Source: Steroidobacter sp.
GTDB lineage: Bacteria; Pseudomonadota; Gammaproteobacteria; Steroidobacterales; Steroidobacteraceae
Direction of reading: 5' to 3'
NCBI RefSeq assembly: GCF_016790065.1
Contig: NZ_JAEUPY010000850.1
Span: 1 to 34,122, forward strand
Length of the DNA stretch: 34,122 nucleotides
Shown: in pieces, positions 6,885 through 20,359 of the stretch
Numbering within the stretch: the first letter of the stretch is position 1
Layout of the letters: each line of letters begins with the position of its first letter
Notes under the pieces: model-generated
Seen by the model: the letters and a program-made list of their open reading frames with translations, nothing else
Databases searched by the model: none
Told to the model about the DNA's origin: nothing
Position numbers and translations under genes: made by a program

Positions 6885-7985
6885 ATGAGTTCATTGAAAT
6901 GCAATCGGCTCGGACTCGCAGCCATGAGCCTGTACGCGCTGGTCCCGCTGCTGGCTCAGGCGTCTGCTTTGCCGGCGACGGCGCGCAAAGTCGTCGTCGA
7001 GAAAGCCGGCGAGCGCTATGAATGGAAACTGGTTCAAGCGCCGCTGCCGCAGATTGCTGACGATCAGGTGCTGGTGCGCGTGCTTGCCATCAGTCTCAAC
7101 CGCAGCGAATTGTCACGACTGAACTCACAGTCTTTCGATACGGCAGCGACGACGCCCGTGTCGGACGCGGCTGGGGAAGTCGTGGCCGTCGGGCGGTCCG
7201 TCAAAAATGTTCGCAAGGGAGCGCGAGTCACCAACACTTTCTTCAGGAACTGGATCGAGGGTCCGTACCGCGAACAGTATCTAGACGCGGTATATGGATG
7301 GAGCATCGACGGCGTGGCGGCGGAATACATTGCGCTCGATGCTCGTGCTGTCGTCCCGATTACGAATGGCTTCAGCTATGAAGAAGCATCGACGCTGCCG
7401 ACTGCGGCAGTGACGGCGTGGAATGGAGTGATGGGTCGCGTGATTACCCGCAAGGGTGACGTTGTACTCATCCAGGGAACGGGCGGCGTAGCCACCTTCG
7501 CTTTGCAGTTCGCGGTGGCCGCTGGCGCGCACCCCATCGTCACCAGCAGTTCGGATGAAAAGCTGGCGCATGCCGCGAAGCTCGGTGCTCGCGACGGCAT
7601 CAACTATCGAACTGAGCCGGAATGGCCGAAGGCGGTGCTGCGGCTGACTCAGGGACGCGGCGCTGATTTGGTGATCGACGTAGTGGGCAAGAGCACGCTC
7701 CAGCAATCGGTGGCCAGCCTGGCCGATGCGGGCACACTCGCCATCATCGGCGGCATCACTGGTTACGACGGATCGCTGTCGTCGTGGGGGCTGCTGAAAA
7801 AATCCGCCACGGCTCGCGGCATCTTCGTCGGCTCGCGTGCCGATTACCTTCGTATGAACGAATTCATGGGGCGGCATCGGCTGCGGCCGTTGGTCGACCG
7901 CGTCTACCCCATCGAGCAATACGCCGAGGCGTTGCAGGCGATGGAGTCCGGGGAGTTCATGGGGAAGATCGTGCTGACGTTCTAA
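6885..7985 (+). CDS. Zinc-independent MDR-family NAD(P)H-dependent reductase with predicted signal peptide
   Basis: This 366-residue protein belongs to the medium-chain dehydrogenase/reductase superfamily, quinone-oxidoreductase or enoyl-reductase branch. It has a GroES-like N-terminal part (ILVR-like VLVRVLAISLNRSE, then DAAGEVVAVG) and a Rossmann part with the nucleotide loop IQGTGGVATFALQFA. The structural-zinc cysteines of classical alcohol dehydrogenases are absent. Unusually, residues 1-28 look like a Sec signal: a basic start, then LGLAAMSLYALVPLLAQASA. MDR enzymes are normally cytoplasmic because they need NAD(P)H. A TTG at 6969 (Leu29, with AGG nine bases upstream) could give a cytosolic form, so the start is uncertain. 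It lies 68 bases after the MocR gene and 29 bases before the UvrA-like gene, all co-oriented. The substrate is unknown. Confidence 0.85.
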   Translation: MSSLKCNRLGLAAMSLYALVPLLAQASALPATARKVVVEKAGERYEWKLVQAPLPQIADDQVLVRVLAISLNRSELSRLNSQSFDTAATTPVSDAAGEVVAVGRSVKNVRKGARVTNTFFRNWIEGPYREQYLDAVYGWSIDGVAAEYIALDARAVVPITNGFSYEEASTLPTAAVTAWNGVMGRVITRKGDVVLIQGTGGVATFALQFAVAAGAHPIVTSSSDEKLAHAAKLGARDGINYRTEPEWPKAVLRLTQGRGADLVIDVVGKSTLQQSVASLADAGTLAIIGGITGYDGSLSSWGLLKKSATARGIFVGSRADYLRMNEFMGRHRLRPLVDRVYPIEQYAEALQAMESGEFMGKIVLTF

Positions 7986-8014
7986 ATGTGGTCTAGGCCC
8001 GTTATGCTTCGCGG

Positions 8015-10546
8015 ATGAAAAAGACTGAAGCGCGCGCGGACGGCATGGTCCATGTCCGTGGCGCACGCGAACACAATCTCAAGAACGTCGATGTAGATAT
8101 TCCGCGCGACGCGCTGGTGGTATTCACCGGTGTGTCGGGGTCGGGAAAATCCTCGCTGGCTTTCGGCACCTTGTACGCGGAAGCGCAACGGCGCTATCTG
8201 GAATCGGTGTCGCCGTATGCGCGTCGTCTGTTTCATCAGATGGGCGTGCCCCAGGTCGATGAGATCGACGGCTTGCCGCCAGCCGTTGCCCTTCAGCAGC
8301 AGCGCGGTTCGCCGACGACGAGGTCGTCGGTAGGCAGCGTGACGATGCTGTCGAATCTGCTTCGCATGCTGTACTCGCGCGCTGGCGATTATCCGCGCGG
8401 GCAGCCGTTGCTTTATGCGGAGGCCTTTTCTCCGAACACGCCGCAGGGTGCGTGCCCGACCTGTCACGGCTTGGGCCGAATCTACGATGCCACCGAAGCG
8501 TCGATGGTGCCGAATCCGTCGTTGAGCATTCGTGAACGCGCCATCGCAGCGTGGCCGCCGGCATGGCACGGACAAAATCTGCGGGACATCTCGGTGACGC
8601 TGGGTTTCGACATCGACAAGCCTTGGCGCGAGCTGTCCAAGAAGGATCGCGATTGGCTGCTGTTCACCGACGAACAACCCAGCGTCCCGGTGTACGCCGG
8701 TTACGAGCCGCCCGAAGTGCGTCGCGCGTTGAAGCGCAAAGAAGCGCCGAGCTACATGGGCACATTCACCGGTGCCAAGCGCTACGTGCTGCACACGTTC
8801 GCGAATACTGAAAGTGCGCTGATGAAAAAGCGCGTGTCGCAATATCTGGTCAGCACCGACTGTCCGGTTTGCGACGGCAAGCGCTTGAAGGTCGAAGCGT
8901 TGTCGGTGAAGTTCGCCGATCTGGACATCGCGCAGATGTCGGGCTTGCCGCTCAAGGAGCTGGCGAAGTTACTGCAGCCCTATGCCTCAGGCACTGCGCC
9001 TCGGTGGCGCAAGATCGAAGCGGAGCATCCGGAGAAGGCGCTGGTCACTCGACGCATCGTCGAGGATTTGGAAGCGCGGGTGGCCGTGATGCTGGAGCTC
9101 GGCTTGGGCTATCTCTCGTTGGAGCGCAGTACGCCGACGTTGTCGCCTGGTGAGTTGCAGCGACTGCGGCTTGCGACTCAGGTGCGATCGAACTTGTTCG
9201 GCGTGGTGTACGTGCTCGATGAGCCGTCGGCGGGCTTACATCCAGCCGATACCAAGGCGTTGCTGACTGCGCTCGATCAATTGAAGCGCGCCGGCAATTC
9301 GTTGTTCGTGGTCGAGCACGAGCTCGATGTGATTCGTCACGCCGATTGGATCGTGGATGTTGGTCCTGCGGCCGGCGAGCACGGCGGTCAAGTGTTGTAT
9401 AGCGGCCCGCCCAAAGGGCTGGCGTCCGTGAAGGCATCGCACACGCGGCGCTTCTTGTTCTCCGAATTCAAATTGCCCAAGCGTGAGCCGCGACCGCCGA
9501 AAGAGTGGTTGAAGTTGAGTGGCGTCACTCGTAACAACCTCGAACGCTTGGATGCACAGTTTCCGCTCGGCCTGCTGACCAGTGTCACGGGCGTGTCGGG
9601 CTCGGGCAAGTCATCGCTGGTGAGCCAAGTGCTGGTCGAGTTGGTCTCGGCGCATCTCGGGCAGCAAGTCGAGGCCGACGAAGACGAAGGTAGCGAGTTG
9701 GAGCGCACCGTCGTGCATACAGTCGGCGGCAAAATCACGACCGGCATGGAACGGATCAAACGTCTGGTGCGCGTGGATCAAAAGCCCATCGGTCGCACGC
9801 CGCGCTCCAATCTGGCCACGTACACGGGATTGTTCGATTACGTGCGCAAGCTGTTTGCTGCCACGAAGACCGCGCGCTCGCGTCGTTACGATGCGGGTCG
9901 CTTTTCGTTCAATGTCGCTAAAGGTCGCTGCGAGACCTGCGAAGGTGAAGGCTTCGTGATGGTCGAGCTGTTGTTCCTGCCGAGTGTGTATGCGCCATGC
10001 CCGACATGCCACGGCGCTCGCTACAACGCACAGACGCTGGAGGTTCGCTATCGAGACAAAAACATCGCCGAAGTGCTGGCGATGACGGTGGACACCGCTT
10101 GGGAGTTCTTCGCCGACGAGTCGCACATTCATCGCTCGTTGAGCGTGCTGCGTGATGTTGGCTTGGGTTATTTGCGGCTGGGGCAGGCGGCGACGGAACT
10201 GTCGGGCGGCGAAGCTCAACGCATCAAGCTGGCCACTGAGTTGCAGCGCTTGTCACGCGGCGACACCTTGTATGTATTGGACGAGCCGACCACAGGGCTG
10301 CATCCCACCGATGTGGAGCGCTTGGTCGTTCAGCTCGAACGCTTGGTCGACGCCGGCAACACCGTTGTGGTGGTCGAGCACGACATGCGAGTGGTCGCAG
10401 GCAGCGATTGGGTCATCGACATGGGGCCGGGGGCGGGCGATGAGGGCGGTGCCGTCGTGGCCACCGGATTGCCCACTGAAGTTGCCAGATCAAAGCGCAG
10501 TCGGACGGCGCCGTATCTGGCCGAGTTTCTGCGAGAAGCCAGCTGA
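8015..10546 (+). CDS. uvrA2: UvrA2-type excinuclease ABC subunit A homologue lacking the UvrB-binding domain
   Basis: This 843-residue protein has tandem ABC ATPase heads of the UvrA type. Walker A loops GVSGSGKSS occur near residues 40-48 and 526-534. Signature motifs are LSPGE (about 376-380, where canonical UvrA has LSGGE) and LSGGE (about 729-733). Walker B segments [10 protein letters not shown] and [10 protein letters not shown] are present. The C-terminal zinc finger is intact (CETC about 639-642, CPTC about 662-665). Canonical UvrA has about 940 residues. Here the stretch between the first Walker A and CPTC (147-150) is shortened, removing the UvrB-interaction domain and the first CxxC of the N-terminal zinc finger. 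This fits class II UvrA (UvrA2/DrrC-like), implicated in DNA damage or DNA-binding-drug tolerance rather than core excision. It may share an operon with the preceding MDR gene. Confidence 0.93.
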
Positions 10547-10553
10547 GACAGCA

Positions 10554-10587
10554 GGAAGCCGGCGAGCTGCAGCAGCTGCCGGCTTCC
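10554..10587. terminator. Hairpin between convergent genes, probable bidirectional terminator
   Basis: GGAAGCCGGC (10554-10563) and GCCGGCTTCC (10578-10587) form a perfect 10-bp stem with a 14-base interior that can add a short AGCT/AGCT pairing. It lies between the stop of the UvrA-like gene (10546) and the stop of the convergent PLP enzyme (10599). No clear T-run follows on either strand, so it is a strong hairpin rather than a textbook intrinsic terminator. Confidence 0.65.
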
Positions 10588-10598
10588 GAAACGAGCGC

Positions 10599-11750
10599 TT
10601 ACCAGCCTGGCTGAATGCGCGGCCACTTAGCAACGACCTGGCCATCCAGAATCACGTTGTAGTGGCTGTGTTGCGCGGACGTGGCGCAAGCATGGTTGGG
10701 CAGAATGCGTACCAGAGAGCCCACCGGCAGATCCGGCAACTTGGCCGTGCTACCCGGGCGGAGTTCCAGCACGCCGTGTTCCTGGTTGGCGTAGCGCATG
10801 ATCAGGTCGGGATACGGGCGGCCGGCAGCGTCGCACACCAGGCCGTAGAACTGATCGACCGGCTGATTGGCAGTACCGCGGTCGCGCGACATGGCCATCC
10901 AGCCGGCATCGACCAGAATCTGATTCTTGCTCGGCTGATGACCGATCACGCTGGACAGCACGCTGATGGCGATGTCGTCGATGGAGCAAACGCCGATACC
11001 CGCCATCACCAAATCAAAAAATACAAACACGCCGGCACGCACTTCGGTGACGCCGGTAAGGTCGCGTGCGAAGTGTGCGGTCGGGGTCGAGCCGACGCTG
11101 ACCACCGGCGACGCGAAGCCCGCGGCTCGCAATTGTTCGGCACACTTCACCGCTTCGGCTCGCTCTTGTTCAGCGGCTGCGATCAATTGCGCTTCGCTGC
11201 GAGCGTCATAGGAACCGCCGGCGTGAGTCATGATACCGCGCGGGTCGGCGCCGCCTTCCTGTAGGACACGTGCGATCTCAACCAACAACGGGTCGCCCGG
11301 TTGTATACCGGCACGGTGGCCGTCGGAGTCGATCTCGATCAAGGTCGGCAACGAAATTTTCAGCTCGCGGCATTTGGCCGCGACCGCTCTAGCCTGGTCG
11401 ATGTTGTCGACCACGATGGACAGGTCCACACCGCTCCGGCGCAGTGCAATGGCGCGGTCGAGCTTGGCCGGCGCGATGCCCACTGCATACAGGATGTCTC
11501 GCACACCGGCGGCCGCGAACTCTTCCGCTTCCTTCAACGTCGACACCGTGGCCGGGCCGCTCGGGCTGACCATCACGCGACGGGCTATGTCGACGGATTT
11601 GGTGGTCTTTAGATGAGGGCGCAGTGTCGTGCCCAGACGACCGAGATGGTCGGTCAGCCGAGCGATGTTCCGATCCATGCGCTGTTGTTCGAGCAGCAGC
11701 GACGGCGTGGGGAGGCGGGCTAGCGGGGACTCGGCGGCATTCACGGGCAT
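10599..11750 (-). CDS. DSD1-family PLP enzyme (D-threonine aldolase / D-serine dehydratase-like)
   Basis: This is a fold-type III (alanine-racemase-like) PLP enzyme of about 383 residues from the chosen ATG. The cofactor lysine is in RPHLKTTK (Lys48). The C-terminal metal site typical of eukaryote-type D-serine dehydratase and D-threonine aldolase is visible as His353 and Cys355 in PNHACAT. Family phrases include ATVSTLKEAEEFAAAGVRDI and GIMTHAGGSYD. The likely reactions are aldol cleavage of D-3-hydroxyamino acids or dehydration of D-serine; the sequence alone does not decide. An upstream in-frame ATG at 11807 adds 19 Arg/Cys-rich residues and has no ribosome binding site, so 11750 is preferred, although its own ribosome binding site is also weak. 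It is divergent from the TonB receptor gene. Confidence 0.88.
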   Translation of the reverse strand: MPVNAAESPLARLPTPSLLLEQQRMDRNIARLTDHLGRLGTTLRPHLKTTKSVDIARRVMVSPSGPATVSTLKEAEEFAAAGVRDILYAVGIAPAKLDRAIALRRSGVDLSIVVDNIDQARAVAAKCRELKISLPTLIEIDSDGHRAGIQPGDPLLVEIARVLQEGGADPRGIMTHAGGSYDARSEAQLIAAAEQERAEAVKCAEQLRAAGFASPVVSVGSTPTAHFARDLTGVTEVRAGVFVFFDLVMAGIGVCSIDDIAISVLSSVIGHQPSKNQILVDAGWMAMSRDRGTANQPVDQFYGLVCDAAGRPYPDLIMRYANQEHGVLELRPGSTAKLPDLPVGSLVRILPNHACATSAQHSHYNVILDGQVVAKWPRIQPGW

Positions 11751-11822
11751 CGAACACTGACTCTTGTTGCGGCCTGCCAACGTGTCATGGCGGCGGCAGC
11801 GGAGCATCGGTAGAAGTGCTGA

Positions 11823-11850
11823 AAGTACCAGGTGGGGTGTTATAAGTACC
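11823..11850. repeat. Direct repeat AAGTACC in the divergent intergenic region, with a -10-like TTATAA
   Basis: AAGTACC occurs at 11823-11829 and again at 11844-11850, offset by 21 bases (two helical turns). The second copy overlaps TTATAA (11840-11845), a possible -10 element reading toward the TonB receptor gene that starts at 11922. The arrangement suggests a regulator contacting one face of the helix, but no matching family is recognised. The rest of 11751-11921 shows no gene. Confidence 0.35.
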
Positions 11851-11921
11851 GGTTGTACGACCTGCGTTCCCCGCCGACCATCGGTCGCAAATAACCAGCA
11901 TCGACTCGGGCGGGGGTTGGC

Positions 11922-14888
11922 GTGACTGCGTTATGTCGCTGGCGGGAGGCCGGTGTACAGCTGCTGTTCTTGCTCGGCGCGGCCGCGTCGTTATGGTCGA
12001 TTCTTGCCTATCCCGCCAGCGCCGAAAACCGGACTCGTTCCCAGCAATTCGAGTTCGACATCCCGCGTTCCACCCGAGTGATGGCTCTGCATGAGTTGAG
12101 TCGCCAGGCCGGCGGGTTACTGCTCGGTTATCTGTCCACCAGCACCGCTGAAGAGGAAGCTCTGGTCGGGCCAGTCAAAGGACGGCTGTCGGTCGAACAA
12201 GTGTTGTCGGTGGTGCTGCGTTCATCGCAACTCACTTTTCGTTGGGTCGAGGACAGCATGGTTTCGGTGGAGCCCATGCCGCCCTCCGATGCGGCCGCCG
12301 AATTGAACAGCGTGGGTGTGTTGCGCACGCTGCCGCACTCCAGCGATTTCGATCCGGCCAAGGTGGGCATGCCGGAGGAAGTGATGGTGGTCGGTTGGCC
12401 GATGAAGGATCTGGCGTTGTCCGGCTCGCCGGTGGTGGTCATGGAACGCAGCGATCTGGAAGCCATCGCCGCGCCGACCTTGCCTGATCTGCTTCGTTAC
12501 ATTTCTCAGAGCGCGTATTCGCGACCGGAAAGTTATCGAGGCAGCGGTGCGCAGTACGCTGAGATGCGAGGGCTCGGTCCCGACACGGCGTTGGTGCTGA
12601 TCAACGGCCGTCGTGCATTGCCCAGCGCCAACAGTATTGCGTCCAGTGCCTTCGATCTGAACACCATTCCAATCACGGCGGTGGAGCGCATCGAGTTCCT
12701 GCTGGATTCGGCGTCGGCGCCGTACGGCACCGACGCTATCGGTGGCGTAATAAACATCATCCTGCGAGATCGAATCGCGCGCCCGACAGTGGAGTTGCGC
12801 TATGGCGGCGCTCAAGGTGGCGCCAAGCAAGAGCGCGTCACCTTGTCCGGCGGTTGGGAACGGGACCGAGTGCGCACCGCCATGATGTTCGACTATTACA
12901 AGATGGGTGGGCTGCTCGGCGAAGAGCGCGATCTGTGGCGGGATCAGGATTTCAATCGCTTCGGTCGACGCGATTTGCGCACGCCCATCAGCAGCCCGGG
13001 CAATGTGTTTGCGCTCGCCGGCAATCTGCCCGGCCTGTCGCAGCCGTTCGCGGCCGTGCCGACCAGCGATGCGACGCCGGGCATCAGCATCGCTGATTTT
13101 CAAGCCACCGCCGGACAGTTGAATCTGGAAAGCTTGCTACGTTATTCCAGCGTCGTTCCCGAAGCCACGCGAGCGACAGTCACTGCGACCGGCTGGGCGC
13201 GACTCAACGACTCGATGACGCTCTCGAGCGACGTGCTGTATGCGAAGCGCGAGTCCACCTATCACTACGGGCCGCCGATTCTGGCCGGCCTGGTGTGGCC
13301 GGCGGTGGCATTCGTGCCGACGCTGCCGACCAATCCCTACAATCCGTTCGGCGTGCCGGTGATGGTGTATCGCTTGCTGACGGAATTGCCGCCACAGTAT
13401 CAGCACGTCGACTCCGAGCTGAAGCGCGCCGTGTTGGCGCTGCGCGGTAATTCGGGCCTGTGGGATTGGGAAGTCTCGGCGCTGTATTCCGATGAACGAG
13501 CCAACACCTGGCTCGGCAATACGCTCGACATGACGGCGACGCTGGCGGCATTGACCAACTCCGATCCGGCGCGGGTGCTGAATCCTTTTTCTGCCGAGTC
13601 ACTCGGTAGCGATGCGTTGCTCGACAGTTTGCGGGCGGCACGCGATGAAGATCATTTCACGTCCGGCGGCCGGCAACTCGCTGCTTTCGTGCAAGGGCCG
13701 GTGTTGGCGGTGCCGGCGGGTTCGGTGTCGGCCATTGCCGGCGGCGAGTGGCGCAACGAAAACATGCAGTCGTTGAGCGGCTTGAATAGTTCTTTCGACA
13801 CGGATCGCAATGTGAGCTCGGCGTTCACGCAACTACGAGTGCCGTTACTCGGGGAGCGAATGAAGATCCCAGGCGTGCACGAGCTGGCGTTGACCGCAGG
13901 TGTGCGCTGGGATCGCTACAGCGATTTCGGCTCCAGCTTGCGCTATCAGGGAGCGCTGTTGTGGCGGCCAACGAGCGCTGTCCATCTGCGCGTCTCGGGC
14001 AGCGAAAGTTTTCGCCCACCATCGCTTTACGATTTACATCTGCCGCGGATCACGTCTAAAGCCAGTGTGAGCGATCCGGCGCGTGGTGAACTCGCTACCA
14101 TCGATTACATCACCGGGGGCAATCCCGAGCTGGCTCCGGCCACTGCGAAATCGATGAGCGCCGGCGTGTTGTATAGCCCAGCAACTGCGTGGAACTGGCA
14201 ATTCTCCGCCGATTGGTGGCGCATCGACATGCAGGATCGCCAAGTGTCGGTGCCGTTACAGACCATGCTCGGTAACGAAGGGTTCTTTGCCGATCGTATC
14301 GTGCGAGATCCAGCAGTGACGCCGGATCGTCCCGGCACGCTGCGCCGAGTGGACACGTCCCGCATGAACGTCGGCGGCGTCAGTGCATCGGGTGTGGACT
14401 TGGTCATCAAGGCTGATAAACAAACCGACTGGGGACGGATTACGCCGGGCCTGCAGTTGACCTGGTTCGATAAGTATCGCGCCACCGATGTGCCGGGTCA
14501 GCCGATGGTGGAGCGCGTCAACGTTGCCAGCGAGCTCGGTTCGGTGCTCGCCTGGCGTGCGGTGGGTTCGTTGAAATGGCGACGCGGCCCCTTCGGTGCG
14601 GTGATGTTTGCTCGCTATACGCCAAGCTACGAAGATGCCATCGCTGGGGTGCCTACCAACCGCAAGATCGCGGCACAGACGCTGTGGGATGTACAGGCTT
14701 CGTTAGATCTGGGCATGTTGGATCGAGACAAGTCGGCGCTCGATGGCTTGAAGCTGTGGGTGGGTGCCGTCAACGTGTTCGATGGCGAGCCGAGCTTTGC
14801 CGACGTGGGCGATGCCGGCGGCTTCGATACCTCGCAAGCCGAATTGAGACAGCGCCAGTTTTATATCCGCTTGGAGCAAAAGTTCTAA
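11922..14888 (+). CDS. TonB-dependent outer-membrane receptor with N-terminal STN domain
   Basis: This is a 988-residue outer-membrane active transporter. An N-terminal signal peptide (hydrophobic QLLFLLGAAASLWSILA, cleavage near PASA) is followed by a secretin/TonB short N-terminal (STN) domain (about residues 42-112), a plug (about 165-295, with AEMRGLGPDTALVLINGRR and ending GGVINIILRD) and a large 22-strand-type beta barrel ending in LEQKF with a terminal Phe. STN domains usually signal to a FecR-type anti-sigma factor, but no fecI/fecR pair is next to it. The GTG start fits the signal peptide and follows a G-rich ribosome binding site. It converges on the lasso-cyclase-like gene, sharing CTAA stop bases (14885-14888), which suggests that it imports or senses the peptide product. 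The true substrate is unknown. Confidence 0.95.
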   Translation: MTALCRWREAGVQLLFLLGAAASLWSILAYPASAENRTRSQQFEFDIPRSTRVMALHELSRQAGGLLLGYLSTSTAEEEALVGPVKGRLSVEQVLSVVLRSSQLTFRWVEDSMVSVEPMPPSDAAAELNSVGVLRTLPHSSDFDPAKVGMPEEVMVVGWPMKDLALSGSPVVVMERSDLEAIAAPTLPDLLRYISQSAYSRPESYRGSGAQYAEMRGLGPDTALVLINGRRALPSANSIASSAFDLNTIPITAVERIEFLLDSASAPYGTDAIGGVINIILRDRIARPTVELRYGGAQGGAKQERVTLSGGWERDRVRTAMMFDYYKMGGLLGEERDLWRDQDFNRFGRRDLRTPISSPGNVFALAGNLPGLSQPFAAVPTSDATPGISIADFQATAGQLNLESLLRYSSVVPEATRATVTATGWARLNDSMTLSSDVLYAKRESTYHYGPPILAGLVWPAVAFVPTLPTNPYNPFGVPVMVYRLLTELPPQYQHVDSELKRAVLALRGNSGLWDWEVSALYSDERANTWLGNTLDMTATLAALTNSDPARVLNPFSAESLGSDALLDSLRAARDEDHFTSGGRQLAAFVQGPVLAVPAGSVSAIAGGEWRNENMQSLSGLNSSFDTDRNVSSAFTQLRVPLLGERMKIPGVHELALTAGVRWDRYSDFGSSLRYQGALLWRPTSAVHLRVSGSESFRPPSLYDLHLPRITSKASVSDPARGELATIDYITGGNPELAPATAKSMSAGVLYSPATAWNWQFSADWWRIDMQDRQVSVPLQTMLGNEGFFADRIVRDPAVTPDRPGTLRRVDTSRMNVGGVSASGVDLVIKADKQTDWGRITPGLQLTWFDKYRATDVPGQPMVERVNVASELGSVLAWRAVGSLKWRRGPFGAVMFARYTPSYEDAIAGVPTNRKIAAQTLWDVQASLDLGMLDRDKSALDGLKLWVGAVNVFDGEPSFADVGDAGGFDTSQAELRQRQFYIRLEQKF

Positions 14889-16741
14889 GCACTGACCCGA
14901 TGGCGCTGGCCGGCGTCGGCTTGCCACGCTCTGGCCCAGATCTCCACATCCAGATGACGCAGCAGTTCGCCGGAATAGGCGGCGCTCTTGGAGATTCGGT
15001 CGCTCAAGATTTCTTCCACGGCCGCGCGGTTCAACAAGCGAGCCTGCACCAGTACGCCATCGAGCAATAGCTCGCGCAGCAGGTCGCGATTCTTTTCAAC
15101 CAACGCATCGTCGAAACCGGGCGCGCGATCCTTCCAGTTGCGGCGAGCGATTTCGAACGGCAGATCCTGGGCGAAGGCCAGGCGCGCCAAACCTCGTTCC
15201 CGGCCATCCTGAAAATGCACGTCCACGGGAATGCGCAGAAGCAATTCAATCGTCGGCTGTGAATAGAGTGGCGCGAGCACTTCCGGTGCATCGATGGCGG
15301 GCGCGACGTTGTAGAACTCCGGCGCTGCCAGCAGTGAGCCGAGGCGCCTGATCAGCGGCCAAGGCACCGGTTGTAGAGCGCTGAACCAGGGATGCGGGAA
15401 GGTGGCTGAATCGGAGTAGCTGTGGCGCAGCTCCTCGGTGAGTAATGTCGACATCGAGAGCAGCGACTTGCGTTGATGCTCCATGCCCGGGCCACGCCGC
15501 CAACGACGCAGCGACTTACTCATCACTGTCCAGGTCGATTCTTCAGTGATCGCAGCGACGCCGGCGGCGAGGCGCAGCGCCTGTAGGTGCAAGCCGTGAC
15601 GTCGCATGTATTCCGATACCGCGTATGCGAACGTTTCGCCGCAGAAGCCGGAGTCGCCGCCGTCGCCGCAGAACACGGCGGTCGCTCGATACTCGCCGGC
15701 GATTTGTTGTTCCAACGTGCTGCGTAACAAATAACCCATCAGGGCGGTCGGTTCGACCTGCGCCGCCAGGTCCAGAATTTTTCCCAGCGGGATGTGTTCG
15801 GCGAGCACGGCATGCTCTTCGTGATTGAGAGCGTGCCGACCGGCCGCGAGACGAGCCCAAGGGCGTTCATCTGAGCGAGCACCCGGCGTGTAGTAGGTGT
15901 AACAGCTCACGCAGGGGCGTGCCGGCACGTCGGCGAGGCAGGCTGCGATGATGGAAGAGTCCAGGCCGCCAGATAGTCGAAGCAGCACGCTCTCGTGATC
16001 GATGCACAGCGTGCGCGTGCATGAACGCACCGTCGAACGCATGGCGCGAGTCGCGAAGGAAACGTCTTCGATGGCGTTGCCGGGTTCGGTGAAGCTCAGC
16101 GGGTGCCAGTGAAACAGTCTCTGCGTGCTGCGCAGGTCGGCGTCGAGCTGAACACACTCGCCGCGCTGAATGGTTTGCACCTCGTTCAAGGCGTCTTGAT
16201 CGAGCACGCCGCCGAGCAATACACGATTGCGCAGATAGCGCTCGTTGAGGGTAAAGCGGAACAAGCCGGTGGCGACCAGATCGTCGACATTGCCAAAAAT
16301 CAGTTGCACGCCGCGGAACGAGGTTCGAAGGCAAGGCAAGTTGCCGCTCGGGTCTTTCAAAACCCACGCGCTGTGATCGGAGAACTCCTTCAAGACGGCG
16401 ACGTAATTGCCCCAAGTGTGTTCGATGAGCCAGCTGCCACGGCTCGCAACGATCAACTCGCTTTGAGGTAGGTCGGGACGGAAACGCTCGGCAGGCGAGT
16501 CGTCCGTGCAATCGGACTGGCGCTCGAAGATCGCGCCGATCAACACACCGTGCTCGTTCGGTAGCGCCTGAATGTCCAGCGATCCTTGCCGGAAGTTTTT
16601 ATGCAGCACGCATAGACCGATTTTTTGTTCGACTCGCCCCCACGATTTGTTTCGTGCCGGCCAGCGCTCACTCAAAAATCGCGCCGTCGAACACTGTTCC
16701 GAGTCCTCGACATTCCAGGTCAGCGCGACATAGCGAAACAT
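14885..16741 (-). CDS. Asparagine synthetase-like protein resembling a lasso peptide cyclase (C protein)
   Basis: This 618-residue AsnB homologue resembles lasso-peptide macrolactam synthetases. The N-terminal domain, starting MFRYVALTWN, is a degenerate glutaminase domain: residue 2 is not the catalytic Cys of true asparagine synthetases. The ATP-pyrophosphatase loop LSGGLDSS lies near residues 254-261. FCGDGGDSGFCGETF matches the lasso-type GDGGD segment, and RNWKDRAPGFDD is followed by ELLLDGVLVQARLLNRAAVE, as in lasso cyclases. The expected activity is adenylation of an Asp/Glu side chain and amide formation with an amine. The ATG at 16741 has GGAG about eight bases upstream; a longer in-frame start at 16789 would extend into the hairpin. 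It lies 74 bases downstream of the precursor-like gene on the same strand. No B1/B2 genes accompany it. Confidence 0.85.
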   Translation of the reverse strand: MFRYVALTWNVEDSEQCSTARFLSERWPARNKSWGRVEQKIGLCVLHKNFRQGSLDIQALPNEHGVLIGAIFERQSDCTDDSPAERFRPDLPQSELIVASRGSWLIEHTWGNYVAVLKEFSDHSAWVLKDPSGNLPCLRTSFRGVQLIFGNVDDLVATGLFRFTLNERYLRNRVLLGGVLDQDALNEVQTIQRGECVQLDADLRSTQRLFHWHPLSFTEPGNAIEDVSFATRAMRSTVRSCTRTLCIDHESVLLRLSGGLDSSIIAACLADVPARPCVSCYTYYTPGARSDERPWARLAAGRHALNHEEHAVLAEHIPLGKILDLAAQVEPTALMGYLLRSTLEQQIAGEYRATAVFCGDGGDSGFCGETFAYAVSEYMRRHGLHLQALRLAAGVAAITEESTWTVMSKSLRRWRRGPGMEHQRKSLLSMSTLLTEELRHSYSDSATFPHPWFSALQPVPWPLIRRLGSLLAAPEFYNVAPAIDAPEVLAPLYSQPTIELLLRIPVDVHFQDGRERGLARLAFAQDLPFEIARRNWKDRAPGFDDALVEKNRDLLRELLLDGVLVQARLLNRAAVEEILSDRISKSAAYSGELLRHLDVEIWARAWQADAGQRHRVSA

Positions 16742-16768
16742 ATATGTCTCCCGACAGCGCTCGTTACA

Positions 16769-16798
16769 TCCGGGTGCATTCGGCCGCATGCACCCGGA
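16769..16798 (-). terminator. Perfect 11-bp hairpin between precursor and cyclase genes (probable attenuator)
   Basis: TCCGGGTGCAT (16769-16779) and ATGCACCCGGA (16788-16798) pair perfectly around an 8-base loop. The hairpin sits in the 74-base gap between the precursor-like gene (stop 16816-16818) and the cyclase start (16741). On the minus strand it is not followed by a T-run, so it more likely causes partial termination, pausing or 3'-end protection of a short precursor mRNA. This placement is common in RiPP operons, where precursor is needed in excess of enzyme. Confidence 0.7.
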
Positions 16799-16815
16799 CG
16801 ATCAGGCATCAACCG

Positions 16816-16941
16816 TCAGCCGATATCCGGCACCAGGCCCCGAAAATATTGGCTGTCCGGAAACACCGGAATGGGGACGTACTGTTTTGTTTCTTCCGCG
16901 GCATCGCCCAGGTCGAGCAAATCGATGGGATCCGTAGTCAT
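16816..16941 (-). CDS. 41-aa RiPP precursor-like peptide with lasso-type leader
   Basis: This small gene has an AAGGAG ribosome binding site about six bases before its ATG. Residues 1-19 (MTTDPIDLLDLGDAAEETK) resemble proteobacterial lasso leaders, which carry an acidic/hydrophobic IDLG-type stretch and a Thr two residues before the cleavage point (Thr18 here). The remaining 22 residues would be the core: Gln20 first, three Pro early, Asp29, aromatics Tyr32 and Phe33, and an end GLVPDIG. If Gln20 is residue +1, Asp29 is +10, outside the usual 7-9 ring position. If Tyr21 is +1, Asp29 becomes +9 but Thr18 shifts to -3. The peptide lies directly upstream of the cyclase-like gene. The precursor role is inferred from the leader, size, ribosome binding site and neighbour; ring chemistry is unknown. 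Confidence 0.72.
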   Translation of the reverse strand: MTTDPIDLLDLGDAAEETKQYVPIPVFPDSQYFRGLVPDIG

Positions 16942-17312
16942 CGCCGTCTCCTTGGTTTGCACGCCGAACAACACGAGATGTATTGACCGGTGCGTACGGG
17001 ACCGTGCCACGCCCCAACTTGCTTTCAATTGCGTGCTCGGGCGAGCCCCGCGGGGTCGCAATGCGATGGGCCGGCACGATCCGCGTCAACTCTCACATCG
17101 GTGCCGGCGCCGAGTTGGTGCAGCGGGCAGTGACAGGCATTGGATTATTGGTATATCGCCGCGCGCCGGAGTTGTGACTTACGTCACTCGAGCTCTGGGC
17201 GAGGCCCATGCGAGGGATACGGCAAAGCCTGAAAGCGCAGCCGGATCGGGTTATGGCCTCAGGCCCGGCAGGCGGATGCCGATTGGGTAGCCAGACCGAC
17301 AATGAGGCTCGC
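16942..17312. promoter_or_regulatory. Divergent intergenic region between the RiPP-like operon and the porin gene
   Basis: This stretch of about 370 bases separates the precursor-like gene (leftward) from the porin gene (rightward). It contains in-frame upstream extensions of both genes, but these lack ribosome binding sites and spoil the leader or signal peptide, so I read it as non-coding. An inverted repeat GTGAC (17174-17178) / GTCAC (17183-17187) with a 4-base spacer is a possible operator. A TTGAAA element on the minus strand near 17022-17027 has no well-spaced -10 partner. I could not define either promoter with confidence. Confidence 0.4.
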
Positions 17313-18515
17313 ATGGCCCTGGCAATACCGACGACCCAATTGAGTGCGATTGCTGCCGCCGTCTGCATGGCGTGCGCGGCCGGTGCCGTCGACGCCGACG
17401 ATCTGGCGTCGAGCATGCATTTCGAAGCGGGCTACACCGGCGACTTCTTTGCCAATCGCCGTGGCGGACTGGAACGCGGAGAACGTCACCTCGGCAATCT
17501 CGACGTTGCCGCCACTCTAGATGCAGAGCGCCTGTGGGGCTTGTCGGGACTGACCCTGTTCGTGTCCGGGCAGAGCAACAACGGCGGCGGTCTGTCGGAT
17601 CGTTTCATCGGCGACTCGTTCGCTGTTTCCAACATCGATGCCCCCAAGGCGTCGCGGCTGCTTGAAGCGGGTGCGGACTGGAGCTTCGGCGAAAGTTCTG
17701 AACATTCACTACGCGTCGGTTTGCTCGATCTGAATGCAGATTTCGATAGCAGCGAACCGCGTGCGCTGTACATCAATTCCATCTTCGGCGTGGGCCAGGA
17801 CTTGGGCCAGTCGGGCGAGAACGGTCCCTCGATATTCCCGACCACTTCGCTGGGCGTGCGACTCAACTTGGCCATCGGGGCGCAATGGCATTGGCTGAAC
17901 GCGGCCTTCGATGGCGTGCCGGGCAATCCCGACGATCCCACGGCGACCACGGTGCGGTTGAATCATGACGATGGTTTGTTATTGATCTCCGAGTTGCAGC
18001 ACTTGACCGATGGTCCGGTCCAGAAGCTAGCGCTGGGCCTTTGGGGTTACACGCGCAAGGCCGATTACTTGGCTGCCGCGGAGAGCCCGCCGGCTGGCTC
18101 GACCCACAATCATGGTTGGTATGTTTCGGCCGACTCACGTTTGGGGGCGCCGGACGATCCGCAACCGTGGAGCACTTCGTTTCGCGTCGGTCATGCGCAG
18201 CAGATCGTGAATTGTCACGATTGGTCGTTCGTCGCTGCGCTCAATTACGATTTGCCGCGCCCGGAAGGTCGTGAACAAACATTGGGTATTGGCGCGGCTT
18301 GGGTGAGAACGTCGTCGGCGTTGCGATCTAGCGCCGAAGACATCGATGACTACGAGACCGCTGTCGAGCTCACGTGGCGAGCGACGCTCACCGATTGGCT
18401 GACAGTGCAGCCCGATGTTCAGTACATCGTGAATCCAGGCTCGCAGCGCTCGCTGCGCAATGCCCTGGTGGTAGGTCTGCGTTTCGAAGTGGCGGCACCG
18501 ACCTTTTCTTGGTGA
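17313..18515 (+). CDS. OprB-family carbohydrate-selective porin
   Basis: This 400-residue outer-membrane beta barrel is of the OprB type. The start MALAIP gives a signal peptide (hydrophobic LSAIAAAVCMACAAGAV, cleavage near VDA) and has GAGG about six bases upstream. Family phrases include FVSGQSNNGGGLSDRFIGD, RVGLLDLNADFDSSE, NSIFGVGQDLGQSGENGPSI, FPTTSLGVRLNLAIG, AAFDGVPGNPDDP and RLNHDDGLLLISELQ, in the usual order. OprB porins pass sugars across the outer membrane, although no sugar transporter is next to it. An in-frame extension begins at 17208 but would hide the signal peptide. The gene is divergent from the RiPP-like operon and ends opposite the TonB-like gene with a hairpin between them. 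Confidence 0.88.
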   Translation: MALAIPTTQLSAIAAAVCMACAAGAVDADDLASSMHFEAGYTGDFFANRRGGLERGERHLGNLDVAATLDAERLWGLSGLTLFVSGQSNNGGGLSDRFIGDSFAVSNIDAPKASRLLEAGADWSFGESSEHSLRVGLLDLNADFDSSEPRALYINSIFGVGQDLGQSGENGPSIFPTTSLGVRLNLAIGAQWHWLNAAFDGVPGNPDDPTATTVRLNHDDGLLLISELQHLTDGPVQKLALGLWGYTRKADYLAAAESPPAGSTHNHGWYVSADSRLGAPDDPQPWSTSFRVGHAQQIVNCHDWSFVAALNYDLPRPEGREQTLGIGAAWVRTSSALRSSAEDIDDYETAVELTWRATLTDWLTVQPDVQYIVNPGSQRSLRNALVVGLRFEVAAPTFSW

Positions 18516-18557: not shown

Positions 18558-19220
18558 TTACATTCGAGTATTCAACCGGAACGTCACCGGTAGCTGCTTC
18601 CACATTGCCATCGGTTTGCCGTCGCTAGTGCCCGGCACGAAGCGCCATTTCTTGGCTTCGCGCAGTGCTGACTCATCCAGCTTGGCGTGACCGCTGGAAC
18701 GGTCCAGCCTCACCTCACCGACGCGGCCATCCGCCAAAATATAGATCGATAGCAGCACCGTGCCTTCGCCGCCTTCACGAATCACCTGCGGCGGGTAGTA
18801 AGGCTCGCTCAGGCCGCGACGCGCGTCGATGCGCGGCTCGACGACCGTCGGCGTTGGTGGCGCCACCACGTCGCCAGTATCGGTGAAGTTGCCGGGCTGC
18901 GTTGGCTCCGGCACATACACTGATTTGGCGTCGGGCTCAGGGGCGAACTCGAGTACCGGCTTGACGTAGGTGGGCTCGAGTTGTTTCGGCTGGATGGTCG
19001 GCTCCTGTATCAGCACTTTTTTCGGCGGCATGGGAGCTACCGGCGGCGGTAAATATCTCGGCGCTTCCGGAATCAAGTAGGTGATGAATTTCGGCGTCAA
19101 GCCGCTACTCAGTGCCCAGAAAAAGCCCAAGTGCAACAGCGCAATGATTGCCAACGCCCAGCCGCGTGGCGAATTCCAGCTGTGTAACGAGGGAAAACTA
19201 TTGATCGTCGTCGCAGTCAT
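18558..19220 (-). CDS. TonB-family energy transducer
   Basis: This 220-residue protein has the three-part TonB layout: a short cytoplasmic N-terminus and membrane anchor (WALAIIALLHLGFFWAL, about residues 22-38), a Pro-rich periplasmic spacer (about 50-145, with many EP/PP/KP units) and a C-terminal TonB domain (YYPPQVIREGGEGTVLLSIY, later RVGEVRLDRSSGHAKLDESA and KKWRFVPG). It would couple the proton-motive force (via ExbBD, not in this window) to TonB-dependent receptors such as the one at 11922. The ATG at 19220 has GGGAG eight bases upstream; a GTG three codons earlier overlaps that ribosome binding site and is rejected. It lies 216 bases downstream of the PF10118-like gene on the same strand but has its own leader. 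Confidence 0.9.
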   Translation of the reverse strand: MTATTINSFPSLHSWNSPRGWALAIIALLHLGFFWALSSGLTPKFITYLIPEAPRYLPPPVAPMPPKKVLIQEPTIQPKQLEPTYVKPVLEFAPEPDAKSVYVPEPTQPGNFTDTGDVVAPPTPTVVEPRIDARRGLSEPYYPPQVIREGGEGTVLLSIYILADGRVGEVRLDRSSGHAKLDESALREAKKWRFVPGTSDGKPMAMWKQLPVTFRLNTRM

Positions 19221-19251
19221 TCGTTTCACTCCCAGCGTGTTATTTGAAACC

Positions 19252-19436: not shown

Positions 19437-20291
19437 TTACTGTGCCGCCGGCTCGACCAGCCGCAGTCGTTGCTCGAATTCGCGCACTAACGCGCCGTCG
19501 TCATGGTCCCAGGGATGAAAGCCGGGCCGGAAGAAACTCAGATACGGCAAAAAGATGGTGCGCATCATGCCGGGCTTGAACCACAAATATGTAAACACGC
19601 GCCACCAGGTGCGCGGCGTGTTGATGCCGTCCTGGCGAAAGAAGTCGGCCATGCGCTCAAAGTTGGAATACCAGAACTGAAAGCTGAGCATCAGCATCAC
19701 ATGGCTGCGTAACAGCCAACGTTTCAGCGGCGACAACTCTCGCGTGACTGCGAGGTAGGTGTCGTACGCGACCGCCTTGTGCTCCACCTCTTCGATCGCA
19801 TGCCATTGCCACAGCCGCAGGATTTCGGGCGGCGCGCCGGGCAGGGGATTCTTATCGGTCAACAAACAATTGGCCATGATCGCGGTGAAGTGCTCGAGCG
19901 CCACGGTGATCGCCAACTGCACCACCGGATTGCGTGAACGTGCGATGTCCAAGCGACGGCGCGTTTCGGCGTCCATGGCGGCCGTGTCATAACCTGCGTT
20001 CTTGATGAGCTTGTTGAACACGACGTGCTCGCGCGTGTGCGCGGCTTCTTGTTCGATGAACGCCTTGATCTGTTGCTGCAGGCGGCCGTCGGTGCGACCC
20101 CGAAAACGCCGCACCGACTCGATGAAAAACGTCTCGCCTTGCGGGAAGGATGCCGACAGGGCATTGAAGAACGCCGTCGCCACCGGGTCGCCGCCGTGCC
20201 ACCATCGCGGATTCGCAGCGTTGCGATCCAGCCGCAAGTCGCGGGGCGTGATCGTCAGGTGGGCCGGGGTGCCGGTGGGGAGGGTGTCCAT
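19437..20291 (-). CDS. Predicted metal-dependent hydrolase (PF10118 family, ferritin-like di-metal motifs)
   Basis: This protein of about 284 residues matches the predicted metal-dependent hydrolase family (PF10118, COG3687-like) by its motif order: GETFFIESVRRFRG, FIEQEAAHTREHVVFN, an EHFTAI helix and WHAIEEVEHKAVAYD. The repeated E-x2-H arrangement suggests a di-iron or other di-metal centre in a four-helix bundle. The true reaction in this family is not established. I chose the ATG at 20291 because GGAAG lies seven bases upstream and because a good promoter (-10 at 20328-20333) lies upstream of it; longer in-frame starts fall within or beyond the promoter. The gene is divergent from a TetR-family regulator, its likely repressor. 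Confidence 0.82.
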   Translation of the reverse strand: MDTLPTGTPAHLTITPRDLRLDRNAANPRWWHGGDPVATAFFNALSASFPQGETFFIESVRRFRGRTDGRLQQQIKAFIEQEAAHTREHVVFNKLIKNAGYDTAAMDAETRRRLDIARSRNPVVQLAITVALEHFTAIMANCLLTDKNPLPGAPPEILRLWQWHAIEEVEHKAVAYDTYLAVTRELSPLKRWLLRSHVMLMLSFQFWYSNFERMADFFRQDGINTPRTWWRVFTYLWFKPGMMRTIFLPYLSFFRPGFHPWDHDDGALVREFEQRLRLVEPAAQ

Positions 20292-20303
20292 GACCATCTT
20301 CCA

Positions 20304-20359
20304 TTGCGAAGCTTGCGGGGTTGGCGTATTAAAAGTTCTTATTGAGAGTGTTGTCAATA
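20304..20359. promoter_or_regulatory. Back-to-back promoters with a TetR-type operator
   Basis: On the minus strand TTGACA (20352-20357) and TTTAAT (20328-20333) are 18 bases apart and drive the hydrolase gene. On the plus strand TTGCGA (20304-20309) and TATTAA (20327-20332) are 17 bases apart and drive tetR. The inverted repeat TATTGA (20340-20345) / TCAATA (20354-20359), with an 8-base spacer, covers the leftward -35 and the rightward start site. A dimeric TetR protein bound there would block both promoters. Confidence 0.7.

Follow-up and report, generated by a model that had tools for sequence, protein, structure and literature searches.

Two kinds of described lasso peptide system come closest to the locus studied here. 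The metanodin cluster, from a Steroidobacterales soil metagenome, is presented in PMC12670498 as an operon in the order precursor (A), leader peptidase (B) and cyclase (C), with Thr at position −2 of the leader and an unusual first ring residue, Asn1; Gln is noted there in a related cluster. Proteobacterial clusters of the benenodin, astexin and sphingocin type, as described in PMC9266682 and PMC11006600, have a DLG-type leader, a fused B, an AsnB-like C and a TonB-dependent receptor (TBDR) gene by the biosynthetic genes, together with isopeptidase and sigma/anti-sigma genes. We analysed a stretch of 34,122 nucleotides from Steroidobacter sp. (RefSeq assembly GCF_016790065.1, contig NZ_JAEUPY010000850.1; “the window”), which carries a lasso-type A and C next to a TBDR gene. 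Its source belongs to the same taxonomic order as that of metanodin and Thr(−2) recurs in it, and the leader, C and receptor resemble those of the benenodin type. The window locus differs from metanodin, described as one complete cluster with an isopeptidase gene, in that B is missing, and from the benenodin type in having neither B nor any gene between C and the TBDR. The cassette is real, conserved and B-less, with an enzymology that looks ordinary and an organisation that looks unusual. The best reading of the sequences is that B, and for lone precursors C too, would act in trans in a hub-and-satellite lasso system.

The precursor gene A (16816..16941, minus strand; 41 codons with the stop codon within these coordinates) encodes MTTDPIDLLDLGDAAEETKQYVPIPVFPDSQYFRGLVPDIG and follows a ribosome binding site, AAGGAG (16948..16953, minus strand), with a six-base spacer to its ATG. 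If Thr occupies position −2, the rule for lasso leader cleavage given in PMC12670498, the leader is MTTDPIDLLDLGDAAEETK (16885..16941, minus strand) and the predicted core QYVPIPVFPDSQYFRGLVPDIG (16819..16884, minus strand), with Asp10, D29 of the precursor, as the ring acid. T18 and D29 are invariant in 25 aligned precursors, and A thus has the leader, Thr(−2) and ring-forming acid of a lasso precursor. All seven precursors scanned scored under the NCBIfam cut-offs; for the window precursor, the benenodin family model NF033522 gave 14.6 bits against a curated cut-off of 33 bits.

The cyclase gene C lies 74 bp downstream of A (14885..16741, minus strand) and encodes a predicted lasso-type macrolactam synthetase of 618 aa, taking the ATG at 16741 as the start (an in-frame upstream start would make 634 aa). 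The protein begins MFRY, without Cys2, and carries LSGGLDSS, GDGGD and, near the C-terminus, RRNWKDR. The SGGLDSS ATP-pyrophosphatase loop (residues 257–263; 15953..15973, minus strand) and the other motifs are invariant among 11 aligned cyclases; an ATP loop without the catalytic Cys2 is what marks an AsnB-like macrolactam synthetase. C matches Pfam Asn_synthase (E 2.4e-27) and six NCBIfam models, all under their curated cut-offs, the lasso cyclase model included (E 7.6e-8). An AlphaFold model had a mean predicted local distance difference test score of 83.9, and a structure search with it matched TsnB9, beta-lactam synthetase and asparagine synthetases, which adds only confirmation of the predicted AsnB/beta-lactam synthetase fold. 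In the cyclase tree the window protein pairs with that of L041, a locus in another Steroidobacter species (100/100), within a 13-row clade of the genus in which the branching is not settled. An earlier note on this DNA, made from the sequence alone, had described the 41-codon gene with its strong ribosome binding site, the 618-residue AsnB homologue and the cyclase motifs, and all are present as it had them.

The earlier note had also missed any B or isopeptidase gene, and our searches agree. Queried with 15 B proteins, tblastn returned only chance-level matches in the window (best E 0.016, over 47 residues within the TBDR gene), and a B profile found nothing there; no decayed B turned up either, whether in the A-C interval or in the rest of the stretch. 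The RRE plus transglutaminase-like peptidase of a standard lasso operon is thus absent from this cluster. Scans of the larger window open reading frames (ORFs), which covered 22 of the 26, gave no Peptidase_S9 match of the isopeptidase type. C converges on the TBDR gene (11922..14888, plus strand; assigned by Pfam scan and TBDR tree) and the stop codons of the two overlap, so there is no gene between them, and the site lacks the isopeptidase next to the receptor that is typical of isopeptidase-type lasso clusters. At three related loci (L046, L047 and L050) an ORF of 778–796 aa lies between C and the TBDR, and that of L046, the only one scanned, matches Peptidase_S9; at L053 the space is 2.5 kb.

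Among 68 cyclase ORFs of at least 100 bits, a count that drops three duplicate loci and includes interrupted genes more than once, B is missing from the fetched stretch only in the window, in L041 and in L095. AsnB-like ORFs below 100 bits were set aside as not lasso-type; this set takes in most loci from L130 on, at which the search for B drew a blank, and in addition L136, where a B is present. As an independent B-less case L095 (Sphingomonas sp. TDK1) was rejected: we judged it eroded because no precursor was found and genes resembling a type IV secretion system lie upstream. Its positions 7482–14299 hold a lone lasso cyclase, an isopeptidase-like gene and a TBDR gene (neighbours labelled by eye), with neither precursor nor B found.

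The genome of the window (G000) does encode a matching B, at another place; PF13471 has two matches in it, on contigs C570 and C214. C570 carries a complete A-B-C operon with a convergent TBDR gene. Its C is 44% identical to the window C, and its precursor, MSDMHQGMEIELLDLGDATLETKQWLLWPIWFDSVFLLGEKEP, has a leader of the type LLDLGDA..ETKQ, as in window A, and carries LLDLGDATLETKQ. C570 B scores 62.6 bits with NCBIfam lasso_biosyn_B2 (cut-off 33), and its N-terminal domain gives a match below the cut-off (E 5e-5) to the PqqD-type lasso chaperone; among six hits of a B profile, TfuB1 (PDB 6jx3; E 0.0011) ranks first. By these matches C570 B is a fusion of RRE and transglutaminase-like peptidase, where the earlier note had expected separate B1 and B2 proteins. 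The note had suggested a genome search for PF13471-type and PqqD-like genes. Its first half led to C570 and C214; the single PqqD-family match, on C300, was rejected as a source of the RRE, as the gene run there reads as an ordinary pqqBCDE operon (names by eye).

We consider it probable that the window holds a satellite of a lasso system. The leader of window A would be bound and cut off in trans by the fused RRE-peptidase B of the C570 operon. The freed core would then be closed by the cassette’s own C, possibly also by that of the operon, with the N-terminal amine joined to Asp10 to give a predicted threaded macrolactam, and the mature peptide would be recognised by the convergent TBDR. Cleavage in trans, cyclisation, lasso topology and receptor recognition are the steps that we infer here.

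The B-less arrangement is conserved in a second species of the genus, as the neighbourhood check suggested by the earlier note now reveals. The genome G003 (locus L041, contig C7) has TBDR, C, A, OprB, TonB and hydrolase genes in the order of the window, likewise without B; its C is 71% and its A 73% identical to those of the window. The flanking markers in the window are an OprB-type porin gene divergent from A (17208..18515, plus strand) and a TonB-like gene (18558..19229, minus strand), both kept at L041, L189 and L190, and a predicted metal-dependent hydrolase gene (19437..20357, minus strand), kept at L041 and L190 with no such label at L189. The divergent intergenic region between A and the porin gene (16942–17207) is common to both, and the two genes are adjacent in all four genomes with the site. 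Upstream regions of 13 out of 20 precursors contain ATTGAC, which resembles a −35 element (an uncontrolled raw count). The window protein alone as a query found no relatives; an alignment query was then used.

The same site in G001 and G011 (L189 and L190) retains the TBDR, A, OprB and TonB genes, and no C was found at it. A is still 41 aa long there, 68 and 63% identical to window A, the reverse of the case that the earlier note had thought telling, loss of the 41-aa frame with the cyclase kept. The TBDR tree, (window,(L041,(L189,L190))) with starred support, places the C-less loci innermost, so that in the simplest history at least A-C was the ancestral state and C was lost later. Since only A and the receptor remain in these two species, all processing at their C-less sites would fall to enzymes encoded elsewhere.

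Further lone precursors of this kind were found in the genus. A precursor profile was run over 14 genus genomes and then, enlarged with more members, over a family-wide sample of 200 genomes representing 25 genera; it is limited to one leader type, and others would escape it. It recovered 26 precursors with a leader like that of window A, and the 10 genomes carrying them all belong to the genus of the window. By our own assignment 11 are part of operons of A-B-C type (one truncated where its contig ends, another with an interrupted C), two form A-C pairs (the window and G003) and 13 stand alone, the fetched stretch around each giving no match to the B or C profile. All 13 lone precursors converge on a TBDR gene, at spacings from a 57-bp overlap to a 132-bp gap; at L193 and L201 the two frames overlap by 4 and 45 bp. 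A rough estimate puts such convergence by chance at no more than 10^-31 if the cases are independent and no more than 10^-12 if they are taken as five ortholog groups. TBDR genes are very numerous in G000, G001, G003, G010 and G011 (at least 91 matches each; 91 of 142–330 candidates were scored and all matched), and other receptors in these genomes may also have small convergent genes.

One satellite group (L191, L194, L196 and L197) occurs in G003, G001, G011 and G010 at a distance of 16–21 kb from the main operon. Pfam scans, made for two of the four loci, confirmed ECF sigma and FecR genes upstream of the TBDR gene at L191 and an ECF sigma gene at L197. An ECF sigma gene upstream of the TBDR gene beside a satellite or main operon was also noted as such at L191 (3707–8295), L042 (4143–9165) and L197 (3085–7650), and FecR was confirmed in L191 and L042; these genes suggest surface signalling. 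The five C570-type operons depart from the benenodin type in the same way as the window, with the TBDR gene directly adjoining C, and the satellites consist of A and TBDR only. Across the aligned precursors the leaders are alike and the cores differ, and the receptor groups run parallel to the precursor groups. From this parallel and from adjacency, we infer that each product would be recognised by the neighbouring receptor.

Gene content, synteny, conservation, the shared leader and co-occurrence are established here. B matched in 10 out of 10 genus genomes with window-type precursors; in the four genus genomes without them neither a B match nor a lasso-type cyclase at E <= 1e-30 was found. 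B is also unusually conserved in the operons of five out of six genomes that have an A-C pair or lone precursors. Over 10 pairs from the five operons (G000, G001, G003, G010 and G011), B identity exceeds C identity by 14.7 points, and the peptidase domain of B averages 92% identity. The controls, 10 pairs from other lasso operons chosen at 50–95% C identity, give a difference B minus C of −5.3 points (−15.8 to +4.7), and only the closest of the five-operon pairs (L043/L044, about +3) falls inside that range. Slow change is to be expected of a B that has several precursors to process and, at two sites, perhaps another cyclase to work with.

Several points weigh against this proposal. The co-occurrence of precursor and B is partly trivial because operon precursors were included in the count, and G007, which is among the four genomes lacking both, is only 75% complete. 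The B-versus-C pairs are not independent, and 126 other pairs, mostly more diverged, give a B minus C of +0.7 (spread 4.0, maximum +9.6). G006, the sixth genome and one with a lone precursor, stands outside the conserved-B group: its B is 55–58% identical to the five. Several of these genomes hold lasso operons of other types that could supply enzymes. B and C form a complex, according to a 2026 review (PMC13352647), and window C, only 44% identical to the operon C, may or may not pair with C570 B. At the G011 site the TBDR frame spans just 509 aa and the gene may be damaged, and the surroundings of the lone precursors L200 and L201 are only partly visible, their contigs being about 8 kb. The window genome assembly is fragmented, with 937 contigs, and has 5.6% contamination, although the G+C contents of C49 and C570 agree (61.3 and 61.0%) and in both TBDR site clades the G000 copy takes the same position relative to G003, G001 and G011. 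The interrupted C of G006 is 41–53% identical, in pieces, to the five operon cyclases; at L048 (G006, contig C93, 11740–16264) an A-B-C operon with an interrupted cyclase lies tail to tail with another cyclase frame, located where the contig ends.

Of the alternatives, the one that survives best, though still unlikely, is removal of the leader by another protease, either the B of the lasso operon on C214 or a general protease. The C214 operon does have its own B with a PF13471 match, and lanthipeptides provide examples of leader proteases encoded outside the cluster (PMC8960859). However, it is a lasso operon of a different type, with a precursor leader VVLGKASEETR and core start GIGLLVTDPD, its B is 29% identical to C570 B, and the window leader is of the C570 type. 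Downstream of the C214 operon (L005, 555–1481, minus strand) lies a 308-aa ORF without a Pfam match, a homologue of which (33% identity) adjoins another lasso operon at L059 (11265–12224); this family is possibly a new lasso-associated protein.

We think it improbable that the cassette is decaying, with C being lost and the pair no longer productive. In favour of decay, G001 and G011 lack C at the corresponding site, and L095 illustrates that a locus of this kind can erode. Against this, window C keeps its motifs and its nonsynonymous (dN) and synonymous (dS) divergence from the L041 orthologue is 0.204 and 1.119, respectively; for A the values are 0.178 and 0.552. A is 41 codons long without indels in four species, and dN is below dS in all six pairs. 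The conservation of A and C in another species, with these dN and dS values, argues that the cassette is beyond chance.

Slightly less probable still is that C acts on the uncleaved precursor to give a leader-bearing macrocycle, the new pathway type that the earlier note had offered beside action in trans. B is absent at the locus in two species, and pseudomycoidin has reportedly been formed in vivo without leader and leader peptidase, so B may not always be needed for cyclisation. Yet the genome also codes for a B that matches, neither Thr(−2) nor the Asp varies across the 25 aligned precursors, and among the 14 genus genomes searched lone precursors of this kind occur only in genomes with B. 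The note had itself held that a B encoded elsewhere beside another precursor with the same leader would speak against such a pathway, and C570 carries both; with a complete A-B-C operon of this leader type present on another contig, there is no need for a new leaderless pathway, and of the note’s two alternatives action in trans is the one supported. That B is missing from the assembly only is scarcely credible: the assembly is fragmented, but the 34-kb contig holds A and C in its interior, flanked by other genes to either side, and G003, a well-assembled genome (about 20 contigs, 100% complete; two PF13471 matches among the 61 candidates scored out of 80, both on contig C2), repeats the B-less order.

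The predicted ring is a further point of difference from described members. Characterised lasso rings have 7–9 residues according to PMC9266682 and PMC13352647, and the mass spectrometry text on metanodin gives nine linearised ring forms, which we read as a nine-residue ring (PMC12670498). The acid of the window precursor is at position 10 if Thr is at −2, and falls within 7–9 only with cleavage after Gln. The six genomes with an A-C pair or lone precursors contribute 22 precursors; counted from Thr(−2)-Lys/Arg, 20 of these carry an Asp at position 10 and the other two (L194 and L196) at position 9; four of the 20 (L197, L198, L201 and L202) also have an acid at position 7, and a 7-residue ring could form instead. 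The remaining four precursors, which come from the other genomes, have the aligned Asp at 8 or 9. Core position 1 is Gln in 21 of the 26 precursors, Glu in three, Gly in one and Cys in one. The window sequence is compatible with either a ten-residue ring (Gln1-Asp10) or cleavage one residue later (Tyr1-Asp9, nine residues). The calculated [M+2H]2+ values are 1245.147 for a macrolactam starting with Gln1 and 1181.118 for one starting with Tyr1, against 1254.152 and 1190.123 for the linear peptides. An engineered ten-residue lasso ring is reported in PMC8498205. The position-10 spacing common to most lone precursors and the operon’s own precursor fits one shared cyclase type. A natural ten-residue ring, if true, would extend the 7–9 limit of characterised members.

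Action in trans has partial precedents. In lanthipeptides, as treated in PMC8960859, the leader-removing enzyme can likewise be encoded away from the precursor. These are another peptide class, whereas here a dedicated RRE-peptidase would apparently be common to several precursors, and in the lone satellites the cyclase is missing too. The citrulassin deiminase described in PMC8498205 is a trans-acting enzyme in lasso biosynthesis, encoded outside its own cluster, but it performs a tailoring step and is not the class-defining leader peptidase or cyclase. No description of scattered lasso precursors matured in trans was found in the literature searched, whose coverage excluded most subscription papers.

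We extend the proposal to the genus more tentatively, and regard the wider version as rather doubtful. In Steroidobacter with large genomes, one A-B-C operon may mature its own and up to four scattered precursors, each tail to tail with its own TBDR and most with ten-residue, Gln-first rings, while clusters shrink from A-B-C to A-C to A and precursor and receptor co-diversify. Lasso peptides are normally sought as compact gene clusters. If lone precursors beside receptors are indeed matured in trans, cluster-based mining would miss most products of such a genome, and precursor-receptor pairs would become directly readable. One-to-one pairing of precursor and receptor would make the role of non-antimicrobial proteobacterial lasso peptides, in uptake or signalling, testable, with each satellite predicting its own receptor.

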